From Bryobacterales bacterium (GTDB lineage Bacteria > Acidobacteriota > Terriglobia > Bryobacterales > Bryobacteraceae): DNA of 64,000 nt. Below are positions 31,189 to 55,843 of this stretch, piece by piece (the first letter of the stretch is position 1; every line of letters begins with the position of its first letter). The stretch lies in assembly GCA_019261985.1 (NCBI GenBank), contig JAFAQY010000088.1:1-64000 (forward strand). The letters run 5' to 3'. The position numbers and the translations under genes were made by a program. The notes beneath the pieces were generated by a model that was not told the origin of the DNA, ran no database searches, and saw only the letters and a program-made list of their open reading frames with translations.

Positions 31189-32310
31189 ATGAGGATCCTC
31201 ATTTCGGCCGGCGAAGCGTCCGGGGACCTCTACGCGTCAAGGCTCGTCGAGGCGATCCGTGCGAGGCATCCCGAAGCCGAGTTCTTCGGCTGCGCGGGGC
31301 CGCGGATGCAGGCGGCAGGAGTTCGAGCCGTTGTGGATGCGCGGTCACTGGCCGTTGTCGGGATCGTCGAAGTGGTGGGCCACCTGCCTCGGATATGGGG
31401 AGAATTTCGGAAGCTGATCCGCGCTGCCCGTGCCCAACAGCCGGACCTAGCCATCCTGACAGATTCGCCCGACTTTCACGTCCGGGTCGCGAAGCGATTA
31501 CGTCGCGAAAAAGTCCCTGTTGTCTACCTGATCGCGCCGCAGGCTTGGGCGTGGCGAGAAGGACGGGTCAAAACGATGCGCGCGACTGTCTCTAGGCTGC
31601 TATGCATTTTCCCGTTTGAGGAAGAATTCTTCAATAAACGAGGCGTCCTGGCGACCTACATCGGCCATCCGCTCGCATCCGTGGTGAAGCCGTCGCTTAG
31701 CCGCGAAGAATTCGATGCGCGTTTCGGCTTCGCGCCATCCGAGCGTTTGCTCGCTTTACTTCCCGGAAGCCGCCACGGCGAGGTCGCGCGGCATCTGCCC
31801 GTCGTAATCGAAGCGGCGGAGGCAATTCAGCGAGAACACTCCATTACGCCCGTTCTGGCGCTGCCCCCCGGGTTTGGGGCATCTTTGAACACTCCCGGTA
31901 TGAGGACGATTGAAGGTCAGACATGGGACGTGCTGGCGCGATGCGAACTGGCTTTAGCCGCGAGCGGAACCGTGACCGTCGAAGCCGCGCTGCTCGGAGT
32001 TCCGATGGTGACGTTCTACCGCGTAAACCCGTTGAGCTGGACGCTGGGGCGTTGGCTGGTGAAGGCTCCGTTCCTGACGATGGTGAATCTGGTCGCTGGC
32101 CGGCGCGTAGTGCCGGAGTTGATCCAGCACGAAATGACCGCCGGCCGAATTGCCGCTGAAGCTGGTGGCCTGCTAAAAGATCCGGACCGCATTGCAGCGA
32201 TGAGATCCGGCCTGGCCGATGTTGCCGCACGCTTGAAAACCGAACGCGATCCAATGGAAATCGCCGCCGAGTGCGTCGAGCGCCTGTGGGAGTGTAACAC
32301 AACGAAGTGA
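31189..32310 (+). CDS. lpxB: Lipid-A-disaccharide synthase
   Basis: 373 residues, the usual length of this GT19 enzyme, which joins UDP-2,3-diacylglucosamine and lipid X to form the lipid A disaccharide. Landmarks: ISAGEASGDLYASRL at the N-terminus, FFGCAGPRMQAAGV, VYLIAPQAWAWREGRVK, YIGHPL, LLALLPGSRHGEV and ASGTVTVEAALLGVPMV. GAGGA precedes the ATG. It shows that the organism makes lipid A. The large open frame starting at 31047 in another register is a shadow. No other lpx gene is adjacent. Confidence 0.96.
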   Translation: MRILISAGEASGDLYASRLVEAIRARHPEAEFFGCAGPRMQAAGVRAVVDARSLAVVGIVEVVGHLPRIWGEFRKLIRAARAQQPDLAILTDSPDFHVRVAKRLRREKVPVVYLIAPQAWAWREGRVKTMRATVSRLLCIFPFEEEFFNKRGVLATYIGHPLASVVKPSLSREEFDARFGFAPSERLLALLPGSRHGEVARHLPVVIEAAEAIQREHSITPVLALPPGFGASLNTPGMRTIEGQTWDVLARCELALAASGTVTVEAALLGVPMVTFYRVNPLSWTLGRWLVKAPFLTMVNLVAGRRVVPELIQHEMTAGRIAAEAGGLLKDPDRIAAMRSGLADVAARLKTERDPMEIAAECVERLWECNTTK

Positions 32311-50410: not shown

Positions 50411-51040
50411 CTACCAGCGGAAACCGAACGACACCGGTACGTAATCCGTATGGATCGAGCTGGTCAGGAAAATGCGAGTCCAACGCGCTTCGGCAAAGAA
50501 TTTTCCGCGCGCGCGAGGGCCGAACGCAATTCCCATGCCGCCGTTAATTCCAGGCTTGTTCACCGTATAAGAGGCGAGAACCTGATTGGCCGGCACGCCC
50601 ACTGGGTAAAAGAAGCCGAAAAACGGGTTAAACCCGGTAAAAGTCTGAATCGTCGGAGCGGTGAATTCCTGCGTCCGATGATACAAGCCGCCCCCGCCAA
50701 TCGCATAAATATCGAAATGGCTGTGCGGAATCAGATGAACGATGGGATTCACGGTCGCCGAGAAAATATTCACGTTACCCCCCGGTACGCCAATATTATT
50801 TAAAACCGAGGATTTGATACCCATCGAGTTGTAATCGAGTTGGAGCTTCGCGCCGACAACGGGCGAAAAATTATAGCCAATGCCGCCTTGAACATTCCAC
50901 CCCATATCCAGATGATCGGCGGATCTGCTTACCGGCGAGGTGAAGCCAGCGCCGAAATCCACAAGGACGTGCTGGAACTCCTGAGCCGAAGCCGTGCCAA
51001 TGACAAAAAGAGAGCATGCCGCTAGAGCCGATGCTTTCAT
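50411..51040 (-). CDS. Outer-membrane beta-barrel protein
   Basis: 209 residues, signal peptide ending TASAQE. Alternating hydrophobic strands with glycine turns (GGIGYNFSPVVGAKLQLDYN; IYAIGGGGLYHR; GMGIAFGPRARGKFFAEARW) and a terminal FGFRW, the aromatic C-terminus that BAM recognises. Eight strands are likely, as in OmpA/OmpW-like barrels. It is divergent from the ABC transporter genes. Confidence 0.87.
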   Translation of the reverse strand: MKASALAACSLFVIGTASAQEFQHVLVDFGAGFTSPVSRSADHLDMGWNVQGGIGYNFSPVVGAKLQLDYNSMGIKSSVLNNIGVPGGNVNIFSATVNPIVHLIPHSHFDIYAIGGGGLYHRTQEFTAPTIQTFTGFNPFFGFFYPVGVPANQVLASYTVNKPGINGGMGIAFGPRARGKFFAEARWTRIFLTSSIHTDYVPVSFGFRW

Positions 51041-52759: not shown

Positions 52760-53048
52760 TTCCACGCATTCCTCTTTAAACGGGCGTCGCGTATTTTTAA
52801 ATAAAAGCGCGCCACGTGGGGACATCTCCCGCGACAAATGAGCGAGCGGCGGGTGTTTTCTACCGTGTCCTACCGCTCTCTCTGCAAGAACTCCGTAACG
52901 CCCGTAAAAAATTCACGCGCAAACGCAAGGTCCAAAGCGTAAACGCCTCAATTGCAAATGCTTTTGTGTTGCGGAACAGTATTTGCACAAGTAAAGGCGA
53001 GTGGATCCAGTCAGGTTACCTGGATGGAGGAAAGGAGAAGAAAAGAGA
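52760..53048. other. Leader and promoter region of the sortase operon
   Basis: 289 bases, AT-richer than its surroundings, with no convincing gene. Near the end, CCAGTCAGGTTACCTGG (53007-53023) forms a short hairpin just before the GGATGGAGGAAAGGAG ribosome site of the next gene, so it could affect translation. I cannot assign -35/-10 boxes safely. Confidence 0.35.
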
Positions 53049-53807
53049 ATGAAGTCGTCAACTAAAAAAGCCGCCGTTCTTTGCGGTGTGGCTATGGCCG
53101 CGGGTTTTTTTGCTTTCCGCGCCAACGCGGATGAATGGGACAAGAAAACGATTCTGACAGTGAATCAGCCGATTCAGATATCGGACACCTATCTTGACCC
53201 CGGTACGTACGTGCTGAAGCTTGATCGCTCGCCTTCCGATCGTCATATTGTTCGAATTTATAACGAACGGGAAAATCATCTATATAACACGGTGTTGGCT
53301 TATCCTAACTATAGAATTCGGCCCACCGGCAGTTCACAATTCACGTTCTACGAAACGCCTGCCGGAACGGCTCGCGCGATGCGTGCGTGGTTTTACCCCG
53401 GAGATAACTTCGGTCAAGAATTCCCGTACCCAAAGAGCCTCAGACAGGTAGCGGTAGCGACTATCGCGCCGGCCCCTGCGGCCCCGCCCGCGCCCGCCCC
53501 TCAGGTAGTAGAACAGGAAGCGGCTCCTGCGCCGGCCCCTGCCCCTGCGGTAGCTGAAACCCAGCGGCAGGAGGAGACACAAGTAGAGATCGCGCAGAAC
53601 AATAGTCCTGCGCCGCCGCCTGCAGCGCCCGTAGAAACAGCACCCGCCCAACCGGAAACTCAGCCCCAGGTGAATACGCAGCCTCAGACTGCGAATACCC
53701 AGCCTCAAGAGTTGCCGCGGACGGCGAGTGTTTTTCCTCTAATCGGCCTTGCCGGTCTTATTTCGTTTGGCCTTTATGGCCTGTTGCGCGCTAAACAATT
53801 ATCGTAA
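53049..53807 (+). CDS. Secreted proline-rich protein with LPRTA sorting signal
   Basis: 252 residues. A signal peptide (1-27, ending RANA), then an N-terminal domain (DKKTILTVNQPIQISDTYLD, SDRHIVRIYNE, ARAMRAWFYPGDNFGQEFPY) that recurs widely in acidobacterial secreted proteins. Residues ~140-221 form a Pro/Ala/Gln-rich linker. The end is a complete cell-wall sorting signal: LPRTA at 222-226, a hydrophobic stretch SVFPLIGLAGLISFGLYGLL and a positive tail RAKQLS. The sortase two genes on is of the class that cuts LPNTA-type signals. This is the probable sortase substrate. Confidence 0.88.
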   Translation: MKSSTKKAAVLCGVAMAAGFFAFRANADEWDKKTILTVNQPIQISDTYLDPGTYVLKLDRSPSDRHIVRIYNERENHLYNTVLAYPNYRIRPTGSSQFTFYETPAGTARAMRAWFYPGDNFGQEFPYPKSLRQVAVATIAPAPAAPPAPAPQVVEQEAAPAPAPAPAVAETQRQEETQVEIAQNNSPAPPPAAPVETAPAQPETQPQVNTQPQTANTQPQELPRTASVFPLIGLAGLISFGLYGLLRAKQLS

Positions 53808-53834
53808 GTAAGCAACTTACAAAGCGAGGCAGAT

Positions 53835-54749
53835 ATGAACCGGCGCTCGGCACTGCGAATCTTGGCAGGGGGCGCCGGTTGCTTTTTGCCCCGCGCGTTC
53901 GCCGCCCGTTCCGACCAACAGGAAGAATTTACGTTACGCAGCGAAACGCGACTGGTTTTAGTCGATGTCAGCGTGCAGGATGGTCAGCGCAACTATGTGA
54001 CCGGTCTTTCGAAGGAAAACTTCGTTTTGTCGGAGGACGGGCGGCCGCAGACGATTACTATCTTCGATAATGAGGATTTGCCGGTGACCGTCGGTATCCT
54101 TGTCGATGAGAGCCGGAGCATGGGACCGAAGAGAGACGATGTCTTGCAGGCGGCCACGGAATTGATTAGCGAAAGTAATCCGTTGGACGAAGTATTTGTC
54201 CTGAATTTCAACGACATAGTAACCGCCGGATTACCGCCGGACAAATTATTTTCCTCCGACATTATGGAGTTACAATCGGCGCTTTATCGAGGTTTTCCGC
54301 AGGGCCGGACGGCGCTATACGATGCGGTCGCAGCCGGGCTGCGGCAACTCAAACTTGGCCGGCAAAACCGAAAGACCCTGGTTCTGATCAGCGATGGCGG
54401 CGATAATGCCAGCGAACATACCCGTCATGACGCGGTCGACCTTGTCGAAAATAGTTTTGCGACGATTTACACTGTCGGCTTGTACGACGCCGACGATCCC
54501 GATAGCAAACCCGGCATTCTCACCCACCTTGCGCATATAAGCGGAGGCGAAGCCTATTTCCCCGAAAATCCTCCCGAAACCATCCCCATCTGCCGTAGGA
54601 TTGCGAAAGAAATCCGCTCGCGTTATACCTTGGGGTATCGTCCAGAAGCGGGTTCCGGCAAGGAACGTGTGCGTCACCTTCGCATTCAGGTCAACGCGCC
54701 GGGGCGCGAACATTTACGCGTTCGCGCACGGGAAAGCTACCGGCTATGA
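53835..54749 (+). CDS. Secreted VWA-domain protein of the acidobacterial VWFA-related type
   Basis: 304 residues with a Tat-like signal sequence (NRRSALRILAGGAG, ending RAFA). The mature part starts with a beta segment, SETRLVLVDVSVQDGQRNYV then TGLSKENFVLSEDGRPQ, typical of the TIGR03436 family. A VWA domain follows with MIDAS residues Asp91, Ser93 and Ser95 (DESRSMGP) and LISDGGDN. The C-terminus has no LPxT signal. Encoded between the LPRTA protein and the sortase, its TGA overlaps the sortase ATG, so it is probably a partner of the system. Confidence 0.87.
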   Translation: MNRRSALRILAGGAGCFLPRAFAARSDQQEEFTLRSETRLVLVDVSVQDGQRNYVTGLSKENFVLSEDGRPQTITIFDNEDLPVTVGILVDESRSMGPKRDDVLQAATELISESNPLDEVFVLNFNDIVTAGLPPDKLFSSDIMELQSALYRGFPQGRTALYDAVAAGLRQLKLGRQNRKTLVLISDGGDNASEHTRHDAVDLVENSFATIYTVGLYDADDPDSKPGILTHLAHISGGEAYFPENPPETIPICRRIAKEIRSRYTLGYRPEAGSGKERVRHLRIQVNAPGREHLRVRARESYRL

Positions 54750-55843
54750 CCCGCACCGGCAGGACCCGCTTGTCGCGCGTGCTGGAGCGAGCTTTTCTTT
54801 TCCTCGGGTTGCTGGGAGTGCTCGCATGGGCGGGTTCAGAGGCTGTGTCCGCAATCTGGCAGGACTGGGGCGGTTGGGTGCTCGATCGCGAAGTCGCTGG
54901 AAAAACAGTAAACATTGCGGATTATCTCGCCGACCGCGGAGACGCGCTTAAGCAGCGCATGGAAGAATGGATCGGCGCCGCTGCGCCGCGGCGCGCAACG
55001 GCCACTGTGCAGCCGCGTTCCGTAACTCCACCAACTCTATCGAAACGAGCGCCCTTCATCGGGCCAGATGGCCTTGTTGGGCGCGTCACGATCCCCCGCT
55101 TGAGTTTGAGCGCCATCGTTCGTGAAGGGACCAGCGGCAAAACTCTAAGCATCGCTGCCGGACATATCCCTGGAACTGCGTTTCCCGGCCCATCTGGAAA
55201 CACCGCAATAGCAGGGCACCGGGATACACTATTTCGCGGTCTAAAGGACATCAAGAATGGCGACGTGATTGATTTCGAAACGCTGCAAGGCCAGTTCGAA
55301 TATGAAGTTGAATCAACGGAAATCGTGACACCGAAAGATGTAGAGGTGCTGAATCCCGGTCCCCACCCGCAGCTGACATTGGTCACTTGCTATCCGTTCT
55401 ATTACGTCGGGAACGCGCCAAAGCGGTTCATCGTGAAAGCACGGTTAATGTCCGAAGCACAGCCAGAACCCGGCGTTATACGCGAGGTCGCGTTACAGGC
55501 ACAGAGACCGGCTCCGCCGAAACCATCTCAGCCATTGGTCGAGCGAAATCACGGTCCCCGTAAGCTGTCATTCACCATCCCCGTCCATCACAGCCGCCAG
55601 CTCACTCCCGGAATATCACTGGGCATTACGGATGCAAACGTCGAGGGAGGTGGCGTGTACGGCTGGATGTGGCTCATGCCGGACAGGCGCACGATCTGGC
55701 TCCACGACCGGGGCATCGACGACCCTCTGATTTTTTCCAGCGGCCCCGGCGGCGAACGCGCGGAGCTGACGATTACAAAAATCGGCGAGGAGTCGGTGTC
55801 TGGGTACGTGGTTTTGCCGGAGCAAAAGCCCGAACAACAGTAA
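54746..55843 (+). CDS. Class D-like sortase with a C-terminal extension
   Basis: 365 residues. One N-terminal membrane helix (14-33) with the catalytic domain outside the cytoplasm. The sortase core spans ~110-235: GRVTIPRLSLSAIVREGTS, His158 in NTAIAGHRDTLF, Cys215 in LTLVTCYPFYY and Arg227 in APKRFIVKA, all three catalytic residues present. AGHIPGTAFPGPSGN and YYVGNAPKRFIV are class D features. After residue ~255 there is an unusual ~110-residue beta-rich extension (VHHSRQLTPGISLGI to GYVVLPEQKP). It likely anchors the LPRTA protein to peptidoglycan or another amine. Confidence 0.92.
   Translation: MTRTGRTRLSRVLERAFLFLGLLGVLAWAGSEAVSAIWQDWGGWVLDREVAGKTVNIADYLADRGDALKQRMEEWIGAAAPRRATATVQPRSVTPPTLSKRAPFIGPDGLVGRVTIPRLSLSAIVREGTSGKTLSIAAGHIPGTAFPGPSGNTAIAGHRDTLFRGLKDIKNGDVIDFETLQGQFEYEVESTEIVTPKDVEVLNPGPHPQLTLVTCYPFYYVGNAPKRFIVKARLMSEAQPEPGVIREVALQAQRPAPPKPSQPLVERNHGPRKLSFTIPVHHSRQLTPGISLGITDANVEGGGVYGWMWLMPDRRTIWLHDRGIDDPLIFSSGPGGERAELTITKIGEESVSGYVVLPEQKPEQQ

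Follow-up and report, generated by a model that had tools for sequence, protein, structure and literature searches.

A sortase paired with a neighbouring LPxTA protein in Acidobacteriota

Introduction

Sortases are the enzymes that Gram-positive bacteria use for attaching proteins to the cell wall. What would such an enzyme, and a protein bearing a sorting signal, do in a bacterium that appears to have an outer membrane? The question is raised by an operon in a 64,000-nucleotide stretch of DNA from a Bryobacterales bacterium of the phylum Acidobacteriota (assembly GCA_019261985.1, contig JAFAQY010000088.1, positions 1 to 64,000), referred to here as the window. The operon, at positions 53,049-55,843, consists of three plus-strand genes in the order substrate, VWA protein, sortase. 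The substrate is a secreted protein that ends with an LPRTA motif, a hydrophobic helix and a basic tail. The three genes of the initial annotation were all recovered (Table 1), as was the start-stop overlap of the last two, which share an ATGA; the same ATGA end is found in 27 of 53 VWA genes that precede a sortase in named relatives.

Comparison with related genomes gives good support to the view that the sortase and the LPxTA substrate belong together. The favoured reading, with a probability of about 0.55, is a dedicated Acidobacteriota sortase system in which LPRTA is cut and the substrate is joined to meso-diaminopimelic acid (meso-DAP, also mDAP or m-Dpm) of the periplasmic peptidoglycan.

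The host genome (6.49 Mb, 98.8% complete) has a single sortase, and also lpxB, rpoN and a MurE with a DNPR motif. lpxB lies on the same contig as the operon (31,195-32,190), as had been annotated, and supports the judgement that the host is diderm. DNPR in MurE marks mDAP-type peptidoglycan; an acceptor of this type probably exists in the host.

A dedicated Gram-negative sortase with one adjoining LPXTG protein has already been described (PMC3237569, in its excerpted text), which lessens the surprise that the initial annotation saw in such a pair. As far as can be told, the substrate family, the trio and its promoter are new here, while dedicated Gram-negative sortase cassettes as such are known. 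Searches of an open-access library brought up no account of the substrate family, of the trio or of the promoter. For the related Candidatus Solibacter usitatus, the excerpted text of one paper has a row "Sortase 6 1 6.0" (PMC3174227), read here as six sortases although the excerpt lacks the column heads.

Pairing of substrate and sortase

The initial annotation had tied the proposed system to co-occurrence of LPxTA proteins and the sortase in related genomes, and such co-occurrence was found. Of 101 family genomes sampled, 67 carry the substrate domain and 69 a sortase; both are found in all 67, a sortase alone in two and neither in 32 (Fisher p 3e-24, kinship ignored). In one of the two sortase-only genomes (G027) an unrelated LPKTG protein adjoins one sortase (locus L088); the other (G422) has a partial sortase match only. 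When the host genome and 60 relatives were searched, the sortase query matched 34 of the 61 and the substrate query 29; three of the 34 (G022, G025, G059) match the C-terminal domain only. Across the phylum a sortase was found in 59 of 297 sampled genomes.

Species genomes were scanned with the substrate alignment. From 119 relatives the best 80 loci were kept, giving 81 substrate open reading frames (ORFs), with starts in relatives taken as the first start past a stop or the locus end. Fifty-one of the substrates lie in a same-strand substrate-VWA-sortase trio and 21 more are within 4 kb of a sortase, making 72 of 81, an upper bound because the query was built from sortase-linked members. Eight lack a sortase but lie within 3 kb of the locus end, and one is simply without. 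The trio, proposed as a conserved unit, is thus the commonest arrangement, but substrate-sortase pairs without a VWA gene are frequent. Nearly all the substrates (77 of 81) end in [LM]PxT[AGS], the commonest motif being LPxTA (55), followed by LPxTG (15), MPxTA (4) and LPxTS (3).

Neighbourhoods examined from the sortase side agree. Close relatives supplied 57 sortases; within 2.6 kb of 44 of them lies a neighbour of the substrate family or one with a sorting signal, and 20 have an adjacent VWA gene. Among 60 sortases from the phylum, drawn from 82 listed places, 48 have a partner within the same distance; there are 23 substrate-family neighbours and 10 adjacent VWA genes. An overlap filter hid the sortase match of one phylum locus (L161), and the partner counts were made without that filter.

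The two genes also appear to have evolved together. For 44 neighbouring pairs in 27 genomes (44 of 46 pairs, two short domains being left out), the distances between substrate domains correlate with those between sortase domains at r = 0.65. Shuffling sortases within genomes, 11 of the 27 having more than one pair, gave a mean of 0.23 and a maximum of 0.56 in 5000 shuffles. Because no shuffle reaches the observed value, the match between substrates and their own sortases exceeds what descent of the species alone would give. The idea that a fortuitous LPRTA merely lies near an unrelated sortase, or that the pair is non-functional, is contradicted by the conserved pairing, the invariant active site and the co-evolution. 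We consider it highly improbable and ruled out by the 72 of 81 proximity, the correlation of 0.65 and the 67 of 67 co-occurrence.

Strict one-to-one pairing was rejected as well, being weakened by a second protein of the same genome. The C-terminal profile of relatives (A5) matched the window tail in its own genome at E 5e-16, one other protein at E 3e-11, and the next at E 0.56. The other protein, of 233 aa, ends with an LPKTA signal and is a divergent member of the substrate family (domain E 4e-15), encoded on contig C15 (L316:8121-8822, minus strand). Since the surrounding 17 kb are without a sortase, the lone sortase of the genome probably serves this protein in trans. Its gene lies upstream of a gene for a 1,091 aa protein which, by eye, resembles TonB-dependent receptors.

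The relatives in the scan are labelled as Acidobacteriota (Bryobacterales, Terriglobia, Solibacteraceae, Acidobacteriaceae and others) except for one labelled Betaproteobacteria. This locus (L263) has a typical acidobacterial trio and is probably mislabelled or from a mixed bin. The full trio is present in Acidobacteriaceae bacterium KBS 96 (L261) and Bryobacterales bacterium F-183 (L268), neither of which is labelled as a metagenome-assembled genome; both are presumably cultured strains. One genome (G358) has a single sortase match but six copies of the substrate domain, five of which are grouped in two clusters (contigs C113 and C398). In four loci (L109, L116, L118, L120) a gene of ~590-660 aa with a conserved C-terminus lies between the substrate and the VWA or sortase gene.

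Table 1. Features of the operon, in window positions; aa, amino acids; nt, nucleotides
Feature	Position	Strand	Description
Sigma-54-like -24/-12 element CGGAACAGTATTTGCA	52972..52987	+	end 61 nt 5' of the substrate ATG
Substrate gene	53049..53807	+	ATG at 53049, 252 aa; aligned with its family
Substrate regions			aa ~1-27 signal peptide, ~28-129 beta domain, ~130-221 linker, then LPRTA signal
Substrate N-terminal all-beta domain	53127..53459	+	AlphaFold2 pLDDT 89.5, 10 strands
Lys129 of YPK	53433..53435	+	closes the beta domain; candidate nucleophile if the substrate polymerises
Cell-wall sorting signal	53712..53804	+	LPRTA, hydrophobic helix, basic tail
VWA gene	53835..54749	+	304 aa, signal peptide, MIDAS motif DESRS...T...SDGG
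Sortase gene	54746..55843	+	365 aa; N-terminal membrane helix, catalytic domain aa 109-234, extra C-terminal beta domain
Sortase extra C-terminal beta domain	55559..55816	+	aa ~272-357; eight strands, mostly high pLDDT

The sortase and its class

The enzyme belongs to the sortase superfamily (PF04203, 111.5 bits against a cut-off of 26.6). Its His158, Cys215 and Arg227, reported intact by the initial annotation, are unvarying across 63 aligned sortases. The likeness to class D also stood, class D models scoring best for the window protein and for all 10 relatives scanned. The class D cut-offs, however, are not reached by the window sortase, which scores 125.4 bits against 165 for NF033746 and 130.8 against 140 for NF058671. 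Among the 10 relatives none passes NF033746, and two pass NF058671, which is LPxTATN-specific. The class C pilin model NF033745 gave 76.7 bits against 160. Because the window sortase falls below the cut-offs of all classes, the acceptor of class D is transferred to it by analogy only.

The class GN cassettes (TIGR03784/TIGR03788), in their excerpted descriptions, likewise have a diderm host and a dedicated sortase beside one LPXTG-type protein. Their partner differs from the window target, which is a short beta domain with a linker, the VWA protein being separate and without a sorting signal. In six loci (L096, L185, L189, L198, L199, L210) a long partner of 647-722 aa adjoins the sortase. As a control, five of five long-partner sortases tested (from L096, L185, L189, L199 and L210) exceed TIGR03784, and three of four long partners exceed TIGR03788. 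The window sortase reaches 98.8 bits against 158.25 for TIGR03784 and none of the 10 relatives passes. The window system is therefore held separate from the GN cassette, membership having failed by score while GN cassettes of the same phylum pass.

The nearest sequences in the Protein Data Bank (PDB) are 2ln7 and 4d70, the latter titled Sortase D5; 2ln7 is counted beside the class D structures. The SrtC of B. anthracis is a class D enzyme. According to the excerpted text of PMC3297441, it cleaves LPNTA and uses m-Dpm as the nucleophile. The window sortase thus shares with class D the LPxTA signal, the best-scoring models and the proximity to these PDB entries, but differs in being under the cut-offs, in its diderm host, in the extra C-terminal domain and in having no recognised substrate family. 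The class cannot be read from the fold, since the top Foldseek matches mix structures of classes C, A, D and E, with class C pilin sortases among the best. A search of whole-sortase structure against viral predicted structures gave a His1 virus protein as its best match (E 3e-4, 90 columns; the domain covered is not stated). A sortase tree of 126 columns resolves little; on it the long-partner label, assigned by hand to 7 rows, changes 3 times.

The extra C-terminal beta domain, which the initial annotation did not mention, is present on 5 of 71 sortase ORFs in the named set and on 4 of 57 in the relatives' set, the window included. Pfam gave no family for it at E 10 and no PDB sequence was found under E 0.28. 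The domain, of ~90 aa, is also seen on separate proteins of related genomes (L097-L101), with a membrane helix and coiled coil as judged by eye.

Known sortases are transpeptidases using amines, which tells against the enzyme being a processing protease, or joining the substrate to a polysaccharide, a lipid or another envelope protein. We regard such a role as unlikely. The layout of motif, helix and basic tail would allow it, being common to the exosortase (PEP-CTERM) and rhombosortase (GlyGly-CTERM) systems of Gram-negatives (PMC1569441, PMC3237569, in excerpt), and the sigma-54-like promoters described below recall an RpoN-dependent PEP-CTERM gene (PMC9850573, excerpted text). The processing enzymes differ, however. 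Exosortase is not homologous to sortase (PMC3237569, in excerpt), and the window enzyme has a sortase fold with invariant catalytic residues, unlike exosortase and rhombosortase.

The substrate protein

LPRTA spans residues 222-226 (positions 53,712-53,726) and is followed by the hydrophobic helix and ...LLRAKQLS at the end. The beta domain, of ~105 aa, ends with EFPYPK. The linker after it has ~90 aa and is rich in Pro, Ala, Gln and Glu; in relatives the linker is 53-197 residues long, with a median of 73 (n = 75). By our estimate the linker may be long enough to span the periplasm.

The substrate matches no Pfam family at E 0.001. A Foldseek search of the beta domain against the PDB gave a best E of 0.59, with TM scores of at most 0.33 among the 50 matches listed, and a sequence profile of the domain against PDB chains gave a single match, a ribosomal protein at E 0.69. 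DUF2911 (Pfam) is sub-threshold in 3 of 10 substrate relatives (best E 0.0013) and is a lead only. The LPXTG anchor model TIGR01167 does not match the window substrate at E 0.1, five of ten other family members reach at least 15.9 bits with it, and none of the ten members scanned reaches the PF00746 cut-off. The family includes members without a sorting signal.

Where a sorting signal is present, 121 of 138 members have lysine at the YPK position, versus 7 of 20 where it is absent. In this count identical domains were taken once, and 3'-cut rows without a signal and rows gapped at the Tyr column were excluded; among the 20 "no signal" rows, L086, L266 and L064 at the least seem to be cut short or broken. 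After clustering at 70% identity the counts are 48 of 60 versus 6 of 17 (p 0.0008), and at 60% identity the difference fades to 23 of 34 versus 5 of 14 (p 0.057; Fisher tests, kinship ignored). A universal YPK was rejected, the motif being absent from a divergent subfamily and from the second substrate of the genome.

This lysine raises another outcome, in which the YPK lysine of a second substrate molecule would resolve the acyl-enzyme. The product would be a covalent oligomer, or a fibre resembling a pilus that lies in the periplasm or passes through it, with peptidoglycan as its final anchor. The lysine, which closes the beta domain, is the main ground for keeping polymerisation as a rival, an unlikely one at present. 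No route for exporting such a fibre across the outer membrane is known to us. Gram-positive major pilins use the lysine of a YPKN motif (PMC3297441, excerpted text). Like the class C enzymes and their pilins, the window has a dedicated sortase-substrate pair, a YPK near the sorted domain and a similar sortase fold; co-evolution of the two neighbours is what such a pair would lead one to expect. The association of YPK with the sorting signal also argues for polymerisation, except that it weakens at 60% clustering and that divergent sortase-linked members lack the motif. Class C scores are below those of class D, there is one substrate per locus, its fold is without a PDB match and the VWA protein is without a sorting signal. 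A more elaborate version is less probable still. Here a peptidoglycan-rooted covalent fibre, linked from Thr to the YPK Lys, would bear the VWA protein, bound non-covalently, as its cap or tip, and genomes with several loci would build parallel fibres with their own sortases.

The VWA protein and neighbouring genes

The VWA protein matches the acidobacterial VWFA family TIGR03436 with 167 bits (cut-off 81.25) and also PF13519 and PF00092. The family has 27 match rows in the genome, 25 of them above the cut-off. No sorting signal is present in the window sequence; 53 orthologues were aligned. The description of the protein as "Tat-type" fits the window N-terminus (MNRRSALRIL...) but not all of 22 orthologue N-termini. 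Because of its metal site and the position of its gene between those of the substrate and the sortase, the VWA protein is most likely a binding partner of the substrate, or of the substrate's ligand, through that site.

An OMP_b-brl beta-barrel gene lies 2 kb upstream of the operon on the opposite strand (50,411-51,040, minus), and in one relative such a gene sits between substrate and sortase (L087:5780-6625); the C-termini of the two look alike by eye. The idea of a constant outer-membrane partner was set aside.

The promoter

The window element CGGAACAGTATTTGCA matches 9 of the 12 specified positions of the sigma-54 consensus used for scoring GG-N10-GC elements. Alone it is weak, as 24 of 248 control upstreams from the same loci score equally high. 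For the substrate genes, 77 of the 81 from the scan (heuristic Met choice) plus the window, 43 of 78 upstreams score at least 9 of 12, versus those 24 of 248 and 3.3 expected from single-base shuffles. At 10 of 12 or more there are 19 of 78 versus 5 of 248; these counts are not independent, the loci being related. By this scoring, sigma-54-like promoters are enriched upstream of the substrates. Two loci (L268 and L295) have 12 of 12 elements 5' of the substrate gene. The rpoN gene is in the host genome, and in 9 of the 80 loci activators of the GAFTGA type are encoded no more than 3 kb from the substrate. A scripted search of the window for such an activator gave none.

Proposed mechanism

Genome comparison shows the pairing, the motif, the active site, the co-evolution and the diderm host, while the cleavage site, the acceptor, the location and the role of the VWA protein are inferred. 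The operon is most naturally read as one in which the sortase cuts the LPRTA of its neighbour. In the favoured scheme the signal peptide would export the substrate, and the C-terminal helix would hold it in the inner membrane. The membrane-anchored class-D-like sortase would then cleave LPRTA between Thr and Ala, with formation of an acyl-enzyme on Cys215, and pass the substrate to peptidoglycan precursors, whose meso-DAP would accept it through its free amine. The small beta domain would thus be tethered to the periplasmic wall through the flexible Pro-rich linker. The VWA protein would be secreted without an anchor and would bind the substrate, or its ligand, through the metal site. The same sortase would also process the second LPKTA protein from the other contig. 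A monomer on wall precursors is the first choice because SrtC, which cuts LPNTA, uses m-Dpm and the host MurE suggests mDAP.

Several observations weigh against this scheme. First, conservation of the YPK lysine points towards an acceptor that is a protein, the window sortase reaches none of the curated class cut-offs, and 15 of the 77 sorting motifs are LPxTG. Second, the substrate-linked sortases do not form one clade (20 changes, versus a mean of 37 when shuffled, on few columns), and the pairing rate of the scan is inflated, being seeded by sortase-linked substrates and taken from the best 80 of 119. Third, the pairing has exceptions. One of the eight substrates near a locus end (L298) has a VWA gene and more than 6 kb downstream without a sortase. 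No recognised partner lies within 2.6 kb of 13 of the 57 and 12 of the 60 sortases, some of which are at contig ends, though neither the one in L112 nor the first of those in L103 is. L071 has VWA and sortase genes with no recognised substrate.

Significance

To our knowledge the role of a sortase inside a diderm envelope has not been established experimentally, and no such study was found in the open-access literature. In this operon a single enzyme stands beside a single substrate that has a clear motif, and there is a candidate for the acceptor; the sortase-substrate pair is widespread in Acidobacteriota. If peptidoglycan is the acceptor, these bacteria would have a covalent wall tether whose chemistry is distinct from that of Braun's lipoprotein.

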